A program made the position numbers and the translations under genes. From positions 1 to 56,674 of IMG/VR virus record IMGVR_UViG_3300034072_002225: a stretch of 56,674 nt of DNA, one strand, 5' to 3'. The notes under the pieces are model-generated. The model saw only the letters and a program-made list of their open reading frames with translations. It ran no database searches and had not been told where the DNA came from. Shown piece after piece: positions 1-49,976 of the stretch (positions within the stretch are counted from its first letter, which is position 1; every line of letters begins with the position of its first letter). The stretch is from a virus.

Positions 1-44
1 TCATAATCCGCGTGTCGGGGGTTCAAGTCCCTCCTCCGCTACCA
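1..44 (+). tRNA. tRNA-Met (CAT), 3' part only
   Basis: The window opens inside a tRNA. The anticodon loop shows CAT followed by AA (2-6). The T arm is GGGGG (17-21), loop TTCAAGT (22-28) and CCCTC (29-33). The acceptor strand CTCCGCT (34-40), discriminator A41 and encoded CCA (42-44) follow. The 5' half lies outside the window, so the choice of elongator Met over a CAT-anticodon Ile tRNA is a best guess. The 3' end is the integration site of the prophage, and the recombinase gene overlaps it on the opposite strand. Confidence 0.85.
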
Positions 45-1653
45 GCGATGCAGTCCTCTTTGGCTGTGTCGCTGGCGGCTTCCCCGAAGCAAGCGCCAGC
101 ACGTTCGCCAGGCTCCCCGTAACTTCGATCCTCGCCATGTCCGCCTCGGTTGGTGCGTCCGACACGATCACCTGTCCGATCAACGAGCGGATCACCGGTA
201 GGAACTGTCTCGCCCGGTTGCCGGTCGCCAGTGCGGTGCCGAGCAGGGCAATGCGCCGACGATAGGATTCGACGATCTGCGGGTGCAGGACGATTGGGCG
301 CAGCGCCTGATGCTCGGCAAGCTCGGCCTCAGCCGCCGCCAGCTGCTCCTTCCGTGTGTCGAGCCCCTGCTTGAGCATCGCGACGTCGATCTGGCCGCTG
401 GCCATGGCGTCGACCAGTCGGCCGATTTCGCCCTTCAGCTGGGCGATCCGCTCGCGCACATTGTGGATGTCACCGGCCATCCGCTTTTCTTCGGCAGCCG
501 AGTGTTCATGGTATCGCTTCACCACCGCGGCGACGACGTCGGGCGCGAGCAGCTTGCGCTGCAGCCCGGCCAGTACGCGCTGTTCGAGGCGCTCGGTCGA
601 GACACGGCGGCCATTCGTGCAGCTGCTGCCCGCCTTGCGATCGCCGCAGCCCCAGCGATCCTTGCTGAGCACGGTATAGGCGCCGCCGCATTCCCCACAT
701 CGTACCAGGCCGGAAAAGACGTGCTTCGGCCGCCGCTGGCGATGCGCCGGGACGCCTTCGTTCTCCGCGTGTGCCTTCTGCACGGCATCCCAGCTCGCCT
801 GGTCGATGATGCGGAGCTGCTCGGCCGGCACCATTACCACCGCATCGGCATCGTTCGCGCGCGAGACACGGCGGCGCGTCTCCGGGTTCTTGCGCATCTG
901 CACGCGGTTATAGGCAATCTGGCCGGCATAGGCCGGGTTATGGAGGATCCCGTTGCGGCGGCCGCGCGTGCCGGTGAGCGTCGTCGGCCGCCACATTTCG
1001 CCGCGCGGCGCCGGCACGCGCTCCGCGTTCAAGCGGCGGACGATGGCGATCGGGCTATCGCCGGCGATCGTCTCGGCGAAAATTCGCCGGATGATCGCGG
1101 CCTCTTCCGGCACGATTTCGCGGTGGCCGCGCTCGACAACGCCGTCGACGATCTTCGGCACTGCCCGATAGCCGTAGCACATGCCGCCCGGCACCAGGCC
1201 GCGCTCGACCGTGCCGCGCTGGCCGCGCCGGATCTTGTTCGCGAGCTCCTTCACGAACAGGGCGTTCATGGTCCCCGCCATGCCGACGTGCAGCATGCCG
1301 ATCGGCCCTTCGGACAGGGTGTGCAGCGCGCAATCGGCGAAGGTCAGGCGCTTGTAGATCGCGTCGGTATCGCCCAGATCGCGGGCGACGCGATCCAGGG
1401 CCTCTGCCACGACGATCTGGAAATGCCCCGCCTCGACGTCGGCGAGCAGCTGGTTGAGGCCGGGGCGGGCGGTGGTGGTGCCGCTGATCGCGAGATCCTT
1501 GTAGACCTCGACGACGTCCCAGCCCTGACGCTCAGCGTATTCCCTGCAGGCGCGCGCCTGGTCCTCGGCCGAGCGCGGGTTCTGCAGGTCGGTGGAGAAG
1601 CGGGCGTAGATCGCGGCGCGCGGGCGCGGCGCGGCGTGGGCGGCTGGTTTCAT
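1..1653 (-). CDS. Large serine recombinase (phage integrase)
   Basis: This is a serine-family site-specific recombinase predicted to integrate and excise the prophage. From the ATG at 1653 (550 aa) the resolvase domain begins with YARFSTD, the catalytic Ser being residue 20, followed by the recombinase domain and a zinc ribbon (CGECGG ... GCGDRKAGSSC). A coiled-coil stretch of about 60 residues lies behind the ribbon. A TTG at 1713 or an ATG at 1689 are alternative starts. The stop codon is bases 1-3, inside the tRNA, and the last residues (VAEEGLEPPTRGL) are encoded by the antisense strand of the tRNA. After excision the tail would be different (see findings). It is the last gene of the leftward early operon. 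Confidence 0.93.
   Translation of the reverse strand: MKPAAHAAPRPRAAIYARFSTDLQNPRSAEDQARACREYAERQGWDVVEVYKDLAISGTTTARPGLNQLLADVEAGHFQIVVAEALDRVARDLGDTDAIYKRLTFADCALHTLSEGPIGMLHVGMAGTMNALFVKELANKIRRGQRGTVERGLVPGGMCYGYRAVPKIVDGVVERGHREIVPEEAAIIRRIFAETIAGDSPIAIVRRLNAERVPAPRGEMWRPTTLTGTRGRRNGILHNPAYAGQIAYNRVQMRKNPETRRRVSRANDADAVVMVPAEQLRIIDQASWDAVQKAHAENEGVPAHRQRRPKHVFSGLVRCGECGGAYTVLSKDRWGCGDRKAGSSCTNGRRVSTERLEQRVLAGLQRKLLAPDVVAAVVKRYHEHSAAEEKRMAGDIHNVRERIAQLKGEIGRLVDAMASGQIDVAMLKQGLDTRKEQLAAAEAELAEHQALRPIVLHPQIVESYRRRIALLGTALATGNRARQFLPVIRSLIGQVIVSDAPTEADMARIEVTGSLANVLALASGKPPATQPKRTASLVAEEGLEPPTRGL
31..44. repeat. attL core (tRNA 3' end)
   Basis: CTCCTCCGCTACCA is the end of the tRNA T stem, the acceptor strand and CCA. 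The same 14 bases recur at 48814-48827, and flanking bases do not match. Fourteen exact bases, one copy in a tRNA and one at the far end of a phage genome, is the usual signature of site-specific integration. The crossover must lie within these bases; the exact dinucleotide cannot be read from the sequence. Confidence 0.85.
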
Positions 1654-2552: not shown

Positions 2553-3001
2553 CCCTCGGCGAGCTCTAAGCGAGGAGGGTCGGCGCGATACACCAGCGCG
2601 ACCTGCGGCTGGTCGACGCCGATCGCGATAAGCTCGGTGTCGCCTACCTCGGTGCCGCCGACTTCGCCAAGGACCTGCCGCAGGCCAGTCTCGTCATGGG
2701 CGACGCTGTCGTAATTCCAGCCAAGCCCTTCGCCGAAGCGAACCGCGAGGATCGACGCATCGGCGGGAAGCGGGCGGTCGAACGTCCACTCACCGCCTTC
2801 GCGGCGGGTCGCGACGATATCGTCGCCCCAGGCGACGACCGAGGCGGTGAACGTCTCTCCGTCGCGGGCGGGCTCGGGACGGTTCCAGTCCTCGGCCGGC
2901 TTCGACAGCCACTCCGCCCAGCCCTCTAGCGTGGTGTCGCACGGGAGCACCTCGTCGTTCCAGGGATCGAGATAGTAGCTGGTTTCGGGAAGCGAGATCA
3001 T
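2549..3001 (-). CDS. Phage hypothetical protein (150 aa)
   Basis: An acidic protein of unrecognised family. It has Trp-rich stretches (EGWAEWL, GGEWTFDRP, GLGWNYD) and a central strand-rich part. Its ATG overlaps the stop of the ParB-like gene by 4 bases, and its stop overlaps the next start, so it is translated as part of the early-left chain. The strict coupling to the ParB-like gene suggests a partner role, which is inference only. Confidence 0.7.
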   Translation of the reverse strand: MISLPETSYYLDPWNDEVLPCDTTLEGWAEWLSKPAEDWNRPEPARDGETFTASVVAWGDDIVATRREGGEWTFDRPLPADASILAVRFGEGLGWNYDSVAHDETGLRQVLGEVGGTEVGDTELIAIGVDQPQVALVYRADPPRLELAEG

Positions 3002-5202
3002 TCCGCCGCCTCCTCGAGATCGGCTTCGCCGTCCTCGTCTTCCAGGCCCTCGCCGTCGTCATATTCGTCGTCGAGATCGTCGAGGCGTTCGGTTCGTTTC
3101 TCGGCCGAGCTGAGCGGCGCGACGGTGTGGGTGTCCAGCCACTCGGGGCGCCAGGTCGAAATCTCGCCGCGATCGCCATCGCCGATGCCGAGCTTCTGCG
3201 CGTCGAGCTCGTCCTCGGGGGATTCCGCCCGGGCCGCGCGGATTACGCGGGCGCAGAAGGCGGCGCTGTCGCCCTTCTTCAGGGTCTTCGCGCGATCGCC
3301 GAGGCCCCATTCCTCGAGCAGCTGCAGGCGCTGCTTGTGGCTGATCAGTTCGAAGAAGGCCTGGTCGAAGATCGCGATGTCGTACCAAGGTGCGGCGCAG
3401 TCCTCGTCTTCCAGCGTGTTGGCCAGTTCGTCGATCATGCGGGGCGCGCGGCCGTCGCCGTAATAGCTGGTGGTGGCGAGCAGGCTGTGCCCGGCGGCGA
3501 TCGCGGCGGCCTGTTGCAGGGTCTTCTCGCCCGCGTTGCAGAATTCCACCCAACCGTCGATCGGATCGTCGGCGGTGACCCAGGGTTCTGCGGCGAGCCT
3601 GGTCATGGCTTCGCGCCATTCCGCGCCGACCGTCAGCGTCTCGAACAGCTTCCGCACCGACGATGGCGCCTTCATGCCGGTCGATTCCTGATCGGCGGGC
3701 GTTTCGATGCCCTGGGCGTGGCCGGAGAAGGTTGGGCGCTTGTCGTACGTTTCGCCGCTAGGGCGCAGGATGGAGCGGGCCTGCGAATAGACCAGGAAGT
3801 CGAGCGCGGCACCCCCGGCAGCGGTCAGCACCAGCTGAACCCGGAGCATCTCGCGGCGATACATCAGCATCGCCTGCATCGCGTCCTTGGTCAGGCCCCA
3901 GGCGGCGCGCTGGCGCTCCTCGGGCGACTTGGCGCCGCCGGCGGCGCGCGTGCTGGCTCCCTTTGGTGTGACGAGGCCAGCCTCGGTGCGGTTCGCGAAC
4001 CACAGGGAGAAGGTGACGCGGCCGTTGGCCTCGACCTTCGGCACGCCGACGATCTGGCCCTTCTTCGGAAGCGGGATCGGGCGCTGGTCGTTCAGCGCAT
4101 CCAGCTCTGCGCGAAGATCCTGATATTCCCGATCCAGCCCCGGGTCGTTGCGCTGGCCTGGCTGCTGAAGCTGGCGCAGCCGCAGCTCGATTTCCTTCGC
4201 CCGCTTTTCCTGTGCCTCCTCCGGGAGCCTGCCCGGGTTCTCGTGGAACTTCAGGTTCCAATCCAGAGAGGTATAGCCGTGCTGGGTGATGGTGGGTGCG
4301 GCATCCGCCCACTCGAATTGGAGGTTCTCCTTCAGGTTCTCAGGCGAGCCCGTGATTGCGACCGTCTTCCCGCGGATCAGCCGCGACGTGTAGGCCCGCT
4401 TAGCCTCGGCGATCTTCTCGTTCGCGAGGCGGCGGAGAATGTCCTCGTGCTCGACGATGCCGGTGTTCGGCTCCTGGGCGAACAGGTCGACGGTGAACAC
4501 GCCGCCGGCGGCGACATAGGCGTCCAGGCCGACCAGGTTGAGCAGCGCGCGGTGCTCGTCCAGGCCGACCTTCATCGCGTCCTTGATGTGCCGGGGAAAG
4601 TGCTGATTGGCCGGCAGCTGCGACAGGTGCTCGTAGACCTGCAGCTGCAGCGCCTGGTCCTCGGTGGCGGCATAGGCATAAGCCTGCTCGTCGTTCAGCG
4701 CGCCGGCGTCATAGGCGGCGAACACCGTGGGGTGCAGATAGGCCAGCCGCAGGATGCGGGCGACGCGCGCCGGATCGAGCGAGAAATGCTTGGCTAGGTC
4801 CGCATCGGTGATCGCGGGATCGCGCTCGCGGATCTGGCGAAAGGCCGCATAGATCTCCGGCGCCCGCATTGCCTCCCGCACATAGTTTTCGTGCAGGCTG
4901 ATCTCGGTGAGCTCGGCATCGGTGCCGTCGAGGATTGTCACCGGGATCGCGTCGAAGTCGAAGTCGGCGCCGTCCTTCTTCAGCTTCTGGATCGCGTGCC
5001 AGCGGCGGCTGCCGGCCAGCACGCCGAGTTTGCCCTTGGGCAGGCCCGCGCCCTTGTGGACCGCGATCGGCTGGATCAGTCCGCGCGCTGCGATCGATGC
5101 GGCGATCTGATCGATGATCGCCGCATCGGGCGTCTTCTCGCGCACGTTGAGGGGAGACTTGGCGAGCAGGGACAGCTTCGCCGTTGCGATGGTAGACTTC
5201 AT
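2998..5202 (-). CDS. Large ParB/RepB/Spo0J-family protein
   Basis: The N-terminal 200 residues are a ParB domain. LSLLAKSPLNVREK is followed by the ParB/sulfiredoxin-like core (GLIQPIAVHK, GVLAGSRRWHAIQ, EISLHENYVREAM). A helix-turn-helix follows (ITDADLAKHFSLDPARVARILRLA). The long C-terminal part, about 500 residues, has a charged coiled region near the middle and ends in a very acidic tail (DDLDDEYDDGEGLEDEDGE). At 734 aa it is more than twice the size of a chromosomal ParB, and no ParA gene is next to it, so classical partition is doubtful. Related large ParB-like proteins are frequent in alphaproteobacterial phages and plasmids. It is the largest gene of the early-left operon. Confidence 0.85.
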   Translation of the reverse strand: MKSTIATAKLSLLAKSPLNVREKTPDAAIIDQIAASIAARGLIQPIAVHKGAGLPKGKLGVLAGSRRWHAIQKLKKDGADFDFDAIPVTILDGTDAELTEISLHENYVREAMRAPEIYAAFRQIRERDPAITDADLAKHFSLDPARVARILRLAYLHPTVFAAYDAGALNDEQAYAYAATEDQALQLQVYEHLSQLPANQHFPRHIKDAMKVGLDEHRALLNLVGLDAYVAAGGVFTVDLFAQEPNTGIVEHEDILRRLANEKIAEAKRAYTSRLIRGKTVAITGSPENLKENLQFEWADAAPTITQHGYTSLDWNLKFHENPGRLPEEAQEKRAKEIELRLRQLQQPGQRNDPGLDREYQDLRAELDALNDQRPIPLPKKGQIVGVPKVEANGRVTFSLWFANRTEAGLVTPKGASTRAAGGAKSPEERQRAAWGLTKDAMQAMLMYRREMLRVQLVLTAAGGAALDFLVYSQARSILRPSGETYDKRPTFSGHAQGIETPADQESTGMKAPSSVRKLFETLTVGAEWREAMTRLAAEPWVTADDPIDGWVEFCNAGEKTLQQAAAIAAGHSLLATTSYYGDGRAPRMIDELANTLEDEDCAAPWYDIAIFDQAFFELISHKQRLQLLEEWGLGDRAKTLKKGDSAAFCARVIRAARAESPEDELDAQKLGIGDGDRGEISTWRPEWLDTHTVAPLSSAEKRTERLDDLDDEYDDGEGLEDEDGEADLEEAAE

Positions 5203-7513: not shown

Positions 7514-7541
7514 AGATTATCACATTTGCATGTGAACTCAA
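7514..7541 (-). promoter_or_regulatory. Second candidate early-left promoter with operator O2 as spacer
   Basis: On the minus strand TTGAGT (7536-7541) and TAATCT (7514-7519) are separated by exactly 16 bases, and those 16 bases are the perfect palindrome TCACAT-TTGC-ATGTGA (7520-7535). A repressor dimer bound there would directly cover the promoter. O2 and O1 are 31 bp apart centre to centre, about three helical turns, so dimers would lie on the same DNA face. Confidence 0.6.
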
Positions 7542-8206
7542 ACGAAGCGGGGCTTGTAGCCCCCGATAACCAGGCCCACGATCTCGATCGTATCAACGTG
7601 GTCGCCGGGCGTTTCCACATTGATCGGAAGTTGGTGTTCCGGATGCGTCGAGCGCGGCCAAAGCCAGCGCCGGCCATCGTCATCGACTCGCAGTTCCTTG
7701 ACCGTCGCCTCGATCGTGCCGTCGAACATGTGAAGATAGACAATCACATGGTCCTGATCGCGCGGAGGTCGGATGTCGAGCATGGGTACCCAGATGACCA
7801 GCGATCGATCAGGATACTCCATGTTCATCGAAGGCCCGCGGACTTCCAGGGCCTTGGCTTTTCGACGGAACCGCTCTTCTATGGGCACGTCTACCGCGTA
7901 CCAGAGGGAGCGGTCCCACTCTATCGCCTCGCGAAACTTTCCTGCTTCCACGCTTCCAACAACCCAAATGGAGGTAGGGCTCGGCGGCTCCGGTTCGTCG
8001 CCGTTCAACTTCCATACCGGTACCTGGGCTGTTCGTGCCAGCTTCGCATAGGTCATCTGATCCAGCGCTTCCGAATGGCCGTTCAGGAAGTTGTAGATCG
8101 AGTTGGCGGACACAGCGGACTGTTTTGCCCAACTGGCCGTCTTCAAGCCTCGCTCGTTCATGAAGCGACGAAGGATGTCGCGACGTTCGTCTGCAGTTCT
8201 GACCAT
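7538..8206 (-). CDS. Phage repressor, XRE HTH with S24/LexA-type autoprotease
   Basis: This is the predicted lysogeny repressor. From the ATG at 8206 (222 aa) an HTH is at residues 18-60 (TASWAKQSAVSANSIYNFLNG). The peptidase half has the scissile pair Ala88-Gly89 (VEAGKF), catalytic Ser126 (GPSMNME) and Lys170 (TVKELR). All three elements of RecA-stimulated self-cleavage are therefore present, so the prophage should respond to DNA damage. ATGs at 8215, 8218 and 8230 are alternative starts and none has a clear ribosome site. Operator-like palindromes flank the gene on both sides. Confidence 0.9.
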   Translation of the reverse strand: MVRTADERRDILRRFMNERGLKTASWAKQSAVSANSIYNFLNGHSEALDQMTYAKLARTAQVPVWKLNGDEPEPPSPTSIWVVGSVEAGKFREAIEWDRSLWYAVDVPIEERFRRKAKALEVRGPSMNMEYPDRSLVIWVPMLDIRPPRDQDHVIVYLHMFDGTIEATVKELRVDDDGRRWLWPRSTHPEHQLPINVETPGDHVDTIEIVGLVIGGYKPRFV

Positions 8207-47973: not shown

Positions 47974-48450
47974 TCAGGCGCGCTTCCGCGTCGCCAGCTT
48001 CTTCCTGATCACCAGGCGCGTTTTCTGGGGCTTGGGCGCGGACGTGATCGAGGTGCCGGTGCTGTCCAATTTCTTGCCCAGCTTTTCCCGTGCGGCCTCC
48101 GCCAGGAACCGGGAGCGGTTGCTCGCAACGCGGTCGATCTGCGCGAGCAGCTGATCCTCCAGCGTGATCTGGACGCGCACCGCGCGGCCGGGCCGCTCGC
48201 CAGCTACCAGAAGCCTGGCCACCTCGATGCTGTCGCCTTCCGGGTGGATGGCATCGATCGCCGAGGGATCGGGAATCAGGTCGCCGAATTCAGCCATGAC
48301 GGAAAGGTGGCCCTCCAGCGCCTCTTGCGCGCCCTCGGCCGCTTCCTGGGCGGTGCTGCCGGCGGAAACGCAGCCGGGCAGATCCGGGAAGTACACGCCG
48401 AATCCTTCCGGCCCTTTCTCGATGATCGCAGGATAGTAGACGGTTGCCAT
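47974..48450 (-). CDS. hicB: HicB-family antitoxin
   Basis: A 158-residue antitoxin. The N-terminal HicB fold is clear (YYPAIIEKGPEGFGVYFPDL, PGCVSAGSTAQEAAEGAQEA). The C-terminal part contains an RHH-like DNA-binding unit (VRVQITLEDQLLAQIDRVAS, NRSRFLAEAAREKL) and a basic tail. It neutralises HicA and represses the pair. The toxin gene lies upstream, so the order is hicA-hicB under the promoter at 48697-48725. Confidence 0.88.
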   Translation of the reverse strand: MATVYYPAIIEKGPEGFGVYFPDLPGCVSAGSTAQEAAEGAQEALEGHLSVMAEFGDLIPDPSAIDAIHPEGDSIEVARLLVAGERPGRAVRVQITLEDQLLAQIDRVASNRSRFLAEAAREKLGKKLDSTGTSITSAPKPQKTRLVIRKKLATRKRA

Positions 48451-48485
48451 TGTCGTTCCCCTCCATGGGATGACAGGGTGGCCGC

Positions 48486-48674
48486 TCAGGGGAGCGGCAC
48501 ACCGGTTTGCTTCGAAATGCTCTTCAACGTGCCGATCGGCAGGTCGCTCTTGGGGTGGGGGACCGTCGCGGTGCCGGGCTTCGTCGGGTGGCGGAAGTGC
48601 TTGTGGCTTCCGGTCTGGCGGACCTCGTACCACCCATCCGCTTCAATCTTCCTGATGACTTCCCGGCTCTTCAT
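48486..48674 (-). CDS. hicA: HicA-family mRNA interferase toxin
   Basis: A 62-residue dsRBD-like toxin with the family pattern: SREVIRKIEADGWYEVRQTG, the active-site region GSHKHFRHP with conserved His, then TVPHPKSDLPIGTLKSISKQ. It cleaves mRNA when free of HicB. The ATG at 48674 is preferred over a GTG at 48677. Placement next to attR suggests a cargo role in prophage maintenance. Confidence 0.9.
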   Translation of the reverse strand: MKSREVIRKIEADGWYEVRQTGSHKHFRHPTKPGTATVPHPKSDLPIGTLKSISKQTGVPLP

Positions 48675-48689
48675 CACGTCCCCCTATTG

Positions 48690-48725: not shown

Positions 48726-48813
48726 GCAGAATATACACATGCGATACACATCGCCGCGTGTGATCGGATGATCAGGCTAGAAAGGAGCGAAGCGGACTAC
48801 GAAGCGCGTATCG

Positions 48814-48827
48814 CTCCTCCGCTACCA
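48814..48827. repeat. attR core (copy of tRNA-Met 3' end)
   Basis: The same 14 bases as 31-44. Left of it, on the minus strand, an open frame continues from the core into phage DNA and stops at 48772-48774; this would be the end of the recombinase gene in the excised circle. Right of it the tyrosine integrase element begins, so this site is also the left end of the second element. Confidence 0.85.
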
Positions 48828-48920: not shown

Positions 48921-49976
48921 TCAGCCGCTTTCGAGCTTCCGAATGGTCGATTCTGCAAGCGCGGGATCGCGGCTGAGATAGTGTGAATCCAGGATCTGAT
49001 GGACATCGCGGAGCGAGTGGCCCGTGACCGTTCCGATCTCCGGCGGAGTCGCTCCCGCCAGCGCTAGCCGTGTGACTGCTGTACCCCGCAGATCGTGGAA
49101 GGTGACACCCTCCACCCCCGCCGCGACGCAGGCTTTTCGCCACGAAGCGCGGAAGCCGCTTTCCGTCCAGGGCGTGCCGCGTTCAGTGAGCAGGATGTGC
49201 TCGCCCGCAGCCGGCGCTCGCTCGTCGCGCAGCGCGTCCAGGCGAGCCTTCAGTGGCGCGCCCACGGGAATGATGACCCGCGTGCCGGCATGTCCACGCT
49301 TCCTCCGAACCGTCTTGCGCTGAACCAGCCGCAACGTGCGCCCGTCATAGGCGGCCCAGGTGAGTGCGAGCAGATCGCCCTGCCGCTGACCCGTCCACAG
49401 GGCCAGGGCGAGCGCAAGGTGCAGATGGGCAGGCGCCTTGGCATAGAAAGAGGCTTCGATCTCCGCGGACCAGATCCGCTCCGAGCGAAAGGCGCGATAG
49501 ACCCTGCCGCCGTTGCGACAGGGATTGGCGGTGATCAGGCCACGGTCCAGCGCCCAGGAAAGCACCCGCGCCAGCACCGAATAGCTGTAATCCGCCTGCC
49601 TGCGCGATCGAGTCGCCAGTTGATCGCGCCAGGCCATGAACTCTCCGCGCGTGCGCCGATCCTCCAGCGCCTCGTTGGGAAAATCGCCATAGGCGCGATC
49701 AATGATGCGCAGGTGCTTCGCGTAATCAGCCTGGGTGCGCGGCGCGAGATCGGTGAAGGCGGTGCTGTCCTGAAAGGCATCCAGCAGCGTCCGCAGGACC
49801 GGTGGCCCTTCCTGCCGTTCCTCATCATACGCGCGGTGGTAGCTCGCGATGAACTCACGGGATCCGGGCTCCCCTTCCAGTCGTGGGCCGCCCTTCCAGG
49901 CATAGTAATAGGTGACGATCTGGCCAGAGGAGAGCCGCTTGCGGATGCGGTTCACCCCCTTCAGCTTAACCCGCAT
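48921..49976 (-). CDS. Tyrosine recombinase (phage integrase)
   Basis: A 351-residue integrase. The N-terminal arm-binding/SAM-like part is about residues 1-160. The catalytic set is Arg198 (WTGQRQGDLLAL), His294-x2-Arg297 (FHDLRGTAVTRL), His320 (GHSLRDVHQI) and Tyr333 (DSHYLSRD). All key residues are intact. The ATG at 49976 lies 10 bases inside the end of the upstream gene. The gene ends about 90 bases from the att core. Confidence 0.93.
   Translation of the reverse strand: MRVKLKGVNRIRKRLSSGQIVTYYYAWKGGPRLEGEPGSREFIASYHRAYDEERQEGPPVLRTLLDAFQDSTAFTDLAPRTQADYAKHLRIIDRAYGDFPNEALEDRRTRGEFMAWRDQLATRSRRQADYSYSVLARVLSWALDRGLITANPCRNGGRVYRAFRSERIWSAEIEASFYAKAPAHLHLALALALWTGQRQGDLLALTWAAYDGRTLRLVQRKTVRRKRGHAGTRVIIPVGAPLKARLDALRDERAPAAGEHILLTERGTPWTESGFRASWRKACVAAGVEGVTFHDLRGTAVTRLALAGATPPEIGTVTGHSLRDVHQILDSHYLSRDPALAESTIRKLESG

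Follow-up and report, generated by a model that had tools for sequence, protein, structure and literature searches.

The question raised by this locus was whether the insertion of a phage into a tRNA gene changes the C-terminus of the recombinase that carries out the insertion, and whether such a change matters to the phage. The window, i.e., the whole analysed stretch of 56,674 nucleotides from IMG/VR virus record IMGVR_UViG_3300034072_002225, begins inside a host tRNA gene in which the reading frame of a large serine recombinase ends. The features that define the two ends of the element are given below.

1–1653, minus strand: large serine recombinase gene in its integrated (attL) form, from the open reading frame and Pfam.
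1–30, minus strand: host-tRNA-encoded tail GLEPPTRGL and stop, from translation; the same tail type was found in more than 110 relatives.
1–44, plus strand: 3' part of the host tRNA-Met(CAT), spanning U33 to CCA and truncated where the record ends; from the sequence and relatives L004–L006.
31–44, plus strand: attL copy of the att core, an exact repeat.
33–34, plus strand: attL site of the putative crossover, dinucleotide CC (GG when read along the gene), from the attP symmetry centre.
48772–48813, minus strand: phage-encoded tail RYALRSPLRSFLA with its TGA stop, which forms the 3' end of the recombinase gene in the free phage (attP form), from a virtual join.
48814–48827, plus strand: attR copy of the att core, an exact repeat, with the putative crossover dinucleotide at 48816–48817.

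The 14-bp core, CTCCTCCGCTACCA, was present in two exact copies, at 31–44 and 48814–48827 of the plus strand, and a search of the window allowing up to two mismatches returned the same two copies and no further matches. In the integrated state, the frame on the minus strand ran through ...LVA-E-E (GTA GCG GAG GAG, 42–31) into GLEPPTRGL (30–4) and a TGA at 3–1. This attL form comprised 550 amino acids from the ATG at 1653, and its stop was located within the host tRNA. When the core was virtually joined to the DNA left of attR, the frame continued as ...LVAEE-RYALRSPLRSFLA to a TGA at 48774–48772 (minus strand), and the attP form comprised 554 amino acids from the same ATG. The exact core repeat and the translation confirmed the original prediction that the recombinase frame crosses the core in phase, and the existence of two forms of the integrase with different ends is nearly certain. 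The element at 45–48,813 is a temperate phage that carries its own large serine integrase gene, with attP inside the final ~18 codons of that gene. The target was identified as tRNA-Met(CAT) from the complete homologous gene in L004–L006; ARAGORN called no tRNA in the window because the record end truncates the tRNA gene.

The Pfam domains Resolvase (PF00239, E = 3.6e-26), Recombinase (PF07508) and Zn_ribbon_recom (PF13408) were all above cutoff in the window recombinase, and Y16, A17, R18 and S20 of the nucleophile region were invariant in an alignment of 23 sequences. A family-name lookup for the recombinase returned only general serine recombinase models below cutoff; the CcrB model scored 89.8 bits, far under its cutoff of 900.

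In the window alone, two open tails are not beyond chance because every frame runs into some stop, and the relatives carried the comparison. Five recombinases with 58–70% identity, two of them in Sphingomonas genomes, were all found at the same tRNA-Met and were read in frame to VA[E/K]EGLEPPTPGL and a stop. A census based on a search of 398 family genomes and profile scans of viral contigs gave 207 distinct members. Among these, 111 had attL-like C-termini read in frame from tRNA-Met, tRNA-fMet or tRNA-Gly, and complete attP-like C-termini were found in about 25. Nearly all tRNA-targeting members continued reading through the core, and most of those at tRNA-Met or tRNA-fMet used the xTG-GTA/GTT phase. 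A single universal phase through the tRNA was refuted by the existence of a second open phase with GSGGGT-type ends; this other phase was used by the distant serine recombinases L186, L277, L291, L294 and L297, which had GSGGGT-like ends. L281 and L284 had what look like attP-state tails ending in -RAA.

For the free state, attR partners were located by looking for another core copy in the same orientation, in most cases 11–50 kb away, and attP was then reconstructed. Besides the window, 11 genomes yielded pairs of attL and attR, in every case at tRNA-Met, and the phage stop was located exactly 13 codons after VAE[E/D] in 9 of the 12 (window included), with TGA, TAG or TAA in use. More pairs were obtained from viral records and from cousins that target tRNA-fMet, and a total of 43 attP tails were gathered from attL/attR pairs or from directly sequenced junctions. 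Tails homologous to that of the window (RYALRSPLRSFLA) were present in G004 (SYSLRSPLRYFKS), G090 (RYRLRSHLRTFRA) and G405 (RYRLDSPVRRFSA). The outliers were G208, whose attP tail extended 55 codons beyond VAEV, and G058 and G033, whose tails were longer than 13 codons. Phage record Mae-JY30 and RR1-A, a free phage of Rhizobium, were among the members found directly in the attP state; both contained a tRNA-like core in frame, followed by a tail of 16 residues. In some recombinases or attR remnants, namely L043, L045 and L388 (G432 attR), two to three successive core units of the VKMVAG type shared one frame, which gives the impression that repeated or tandem integration events have stacked att sites at the end of the gene.

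A natural attP junction was provided by contig L129, which lacks a tRNA. As far as base 4097, the contig followed the attL locus of G287; from base 4077 onwards, it followed the attR locus of that genome, and the two alignments overlapped by 21 bases spanning the core. A wrong junction was ruled out, as the core is precisely where L129 changes over from resembling attL to resembling attR. The tail protein of L129 was that reconstructed for G287, with three silent and no replacement differences. Comparison of these sequences verifies the reconstruction of attP from attL and attR for L129 and G287, and indicates that the free form occurs in nature there. The proposal of different tails in the integrated and the free state is well supported, with the junction type confirmed in this relative; the check proposed along with it, whether both tails stay open in relatives that share the tRNA site, came out positive, with attL and attP tails across the family. 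Chance was ruled out by the relatives as the source of the two-tail layout at the family level.

The attP sequences were nearly symmetrical around GG on the gene strand, as in G033 (TGGTAGC-GGAGGACA-GCTACCA). The identity between attP and attB always extended to this GG and stopped there in some members (G208, L018). From this symmetry and identity, we infer that strand exchange takes place at GG, i.e., at 33–34 and 48816–48817 (plus strand). The phage half that bears VA-E also rebuilds the tRNA 3' end.

The position of the tail was evaluated with AlphaFold monomer models of the window recombinase (attL form) and of L129 (attP form). The coiled coil consisted of two long helices, 371–419 and 424–450, and in both models the last 20 residues were disordered after the final helix, past the coiled coil at 371–450. 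The original prediction had considered a tail that touches the zinc or coiled-coil region; the monomer models did not predict such a contact and placed the disordered tail beyond both the coiled coil and the zinc ribbon. Cousins without a tRNA target ended right after or near the final helix and had no tail. Hence, according to the models and these cousins, the tail is an added, exposed peptide, and the relatives without it show that it is dispensable for the fold. The same observations suit an account in which the overlap has little consequence: attP would lie in the 3' end of the gene since compact genomes keep attP beside int, the phage tail would be kept for its double role as normal C-terminus and P arm of attP, and the tail read from the tRNA would simply be tolerated. 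The sequence of the attL tails, moreover, is set by the tRNA and not by selection on the phage. This account is a serious possibility that we hold to be somewhat less probable than its negation.

The constraint on the attP tails bears on this point. In five related sets, the pN/pS value was 0.47 in the gene frame versus 0.91 and 1.61 in the other frames. When sites were shuffled within the tail, a value so low was reached in fewer than 1/1,000 cases (p = 0.0005), and the excess of changes at third positions gave p = 0.007; these family p-values, like those given below for the terminal residues, are optimistic because they are inflated by relatedness among the sequences. A stop was found exactly 14 codons after VA[E/G] in 17 of the 43 attP tails, and in a control on 40 of these, stops within 12–16 codons were found in 24/40 cases in frame versus 8/40 and 2/40 in the shifted frames. 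The attP tails were basic, with a mean net charge of about +2.4, whereas that of the tRNA-read attL tails was −0.7. The last residue was A, V, L, I or C in 34/43 attP tails versus 192/534 (36%) neighbouring genes (Fisher p = 3.6e-8), and an -AA end was found in 11/43 versus 47/534 (p = 0.002). The window's own phage tail ends in -FLA rather than -AA, and most attP tails of the Met clade end in R or K plus a hydrophobic residue; judging from these ends, a strict ssrA-like tag is confined to part of the family.

With this evidence, integration exchanges a C-terminus that is under selection, and the phage tail is very probably a functional protein sequence. Part of the constraint may serve DNA recognition because the tail DNA doubles as the P arm of attP. 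However, the stop position, the in-frame constraint, the charge and the nonpolar ends are kept beyond what DNA binding would lead one to expect, which argues against a merely tolerated overlap. Furthermore, if the tail were idle, the simplest layout would have the frame closed ahead of the core or inside it; instead, the read-through described above is nearly universal among the tRNA-targeting members.

An effect at the RNA level was also considered. In phage lambda, int/sib retroregulation acts on the mRNA through an RNase III site and leaves the protein unchanged. By analogy, integration here would alter the 3' end of the int mRNA, and hence its level, through the loss of a terminator or stem-loop and the gain of antisense tRNA. 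As in lambda, where int output is thereby changed, integration necessarily parts int from the phage 3' flank. The tails of the window and of G004 folded better than their shuffles (z = −2.7 and −3.1), and in L129 a terminator-like hairpin (GCCCG...CGGGC then TTT) was located directly after the attP-form stop at about 4132. Integration would strand this hairpin at attR, and int transcription would then run antisense into the tRNA. In contrast to lambda sib, the protein tail itself changes here and the attP tails shared no RNA fold, most z values being near 0; the substitution pattern was protein-like, and no terminator-like site was found around the window's attR. Regulation of this kind is highly improbable as the explanation of the two tails.

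The original prediction had proposed a built-in change of direction. In such a scheme, the two tails would shift the preference between attP x attB and attL x attR, or the response to an excision factor, with stability unchanged. The strong difference in charge fits this scheme, since a basic tail could aid attP binding, and it is the phage form that is available at the time when integration has to happen. However, serine integrases are already directional by means of their coiled coil and a separate excision factor, and the models place the tail a long way from this coiled coil. A direct effect of the tails on direction is unlikely, and a change of direction that dispenses with a separate factor is purely conjectural.

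The chemistry of the tail agrees at least as well with a change in the stability of the integrase, for which mycobacteriophage repressors offer a demonstrated precedent, as with a change of direction. ClpX-type recognition involves an exposed C-terminus with a small nonpolar end, often preceded by basic residues; examples are the ssrA-type -LAA ends, RRKKAI of MuA and -AA of CtrA. Because the exposed nonpolar C-terminus resembles such signals, and because a mycobacteriophage precedent exists, we favour altered stability over a direct directionality switch by analogy. In the free phage, the integrase ends in the phage-encoded, disordered, basic tail with its nonpolar last residue (RYALRSPLRSFLA in the window). 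Strand exchange with the tRNA-Met 3' end detaches this tail from the gene and leaves it at attR, and the integrase is then fused in frame to the short peptide read antisense through the tRNA (GLEPPTRGL). The phage tail might offer ClpXP or a tail-specific protease of the host a C-terminal handle by which the integrase is degraded or remodelled. Thus, the integrase of the infecting phage would be short-lived or restrained, whereas that of the lysogen would be stable and ready to excise once the directionality factor appears. As a whole, this explanation by stability or remodelling falls just short of an even chance; the stability mechanism specifically, drawn by analogy, is put forward more tentatively. 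A plain tolerated overlap is about as likely as a stability switch, and a direct directionality switch is less so. It is possible, though less likely than not, that a widespread group of temperate phages, presumably mainly alphaproteobacterial, uses integration as a proteolytic switch on the integrase, in which a tail leading to ClpXP-type destruction or remodelling would limit lysogenisation and the tRNA-read tail would stabilise the enzyme.

The arrangement was compared with known systems. SSV-type archaeal integrases are tyrosine recombinases with attP within the gene, and integration splits and inactivates that gene. The position of attP within the integrase gene is shared with the present phage, in which a short tail is swapped and the gene is not split. 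In integration-dependent immunity of the BPs/Brujita type, attP lies inside the repressor ORF and the phage form is destroyed via a C-terminal tag with two alanines; the mycobacteriophage Int also bears a C-terminal proteolysis signal (PMC4557955, PMC9934374). As in BPs and Brujita, attP here is inside an ORF and integration swaps the 3' end to give state-specific C-termini (PMC4557955, PMC9934374), and ends made of two alanines or of nonpolar residues are found repeatedly on the phage forms. The differences are that the repressor is switched in BPs and Brujita, with the integrase as a separate neighbouring gene, whereas the serine integrase itself is switched here; that the prophage form in BPs is 33 residues shorter, whereas here it is about equal in length with a different tail; and that degradation was demonstrated there, whereas the present case is known from sequence comparison. 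In the window, attP does not lie in a repressor ORF, and a putative LexA/S24-like repressor is encoded at 7538–8161.

In the Dehalococcoides ssrA islands described in 2011, the serine recombinase DsiB overlaps attL, and the authors raised the possibility that full function belongs to the circular form (PMC3146451). As with DsiB, the recombinase 3' end overlaps attL here and the stop comes from a host RNA gene. The target of DsiB is ssrA (tmRNA), its tails were reported as divergent and the proteins are CcrB-like (PMC3146451), whereas the window's target is tRNA-Met and its recombinase falls outside the DsiB/CcrB lineage. The attP-form tail of DsiB was neither reconstructed nor tested for constraint in that study (PMC3146451); both were done here. 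Like the present element, the temperate Paracoccus phage vB_PamS_Pami6, which is active in its alphaproteobacterial host, has a serine recombinase and sits at tRNA-Met(CAT), and the parts of its description that were consulted gave no att overlap with the recombinase frame (PMC6536676). A search of the open literature returned no report of a conserved attP-form tail or of its testing, and a literature search for the tRNA-read tail sequences gave no matches. The finding combines two known ideas, namely, attP inside an ORF and a serine integrase that overlaps its att site.

If the tail alters the stability or activity of the integrase, insertion would feed back on the enzyme that performs it, as a self-acting switch with no extra gene, and a proteolytic switch would be for the integrase what integration-dependent immunity is for the mycobacteriophage repressor. 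The recurring tRNA-antisense tails on database recombinases (GLEPPTRGL, GFEPTTFRL and similar) would also be accounted for, and such recombinases would be prophage forms rather than the protein of the infecting phage. For genome engineering, serine integrases cloned from prophages would bear the wrong C-terminus.

In the rest of the window, the recombinase was the last gene of a leftward block, which was followed by divergent early genes, the portal, the protease, the tape measure and tail genes, and then a HicAB pair just inside the right end of the phage. A ParB-like protein of 734 amino acids (2998–5202, minus strand) was encoded in the early leftward block and exceeds the usual ParB size. 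The HicA/HicB toxin-antitoxin pair (47974–48677, minus strand) was located just inside attR; in the free circle, the recombinase gene would read toward hicAB, and no terminator-like site was found between them. Outside attR, at a distance of 94 bp, a tyrosine integrase (48921–49976, minus strand) was encoded with its 3' end facing the core, and GapR-like and HTH genes were located beyond it, up to 56674. This outer region probably belongs to another prophage, inserted in tandem at the same tRNA and truncated where the record stops.
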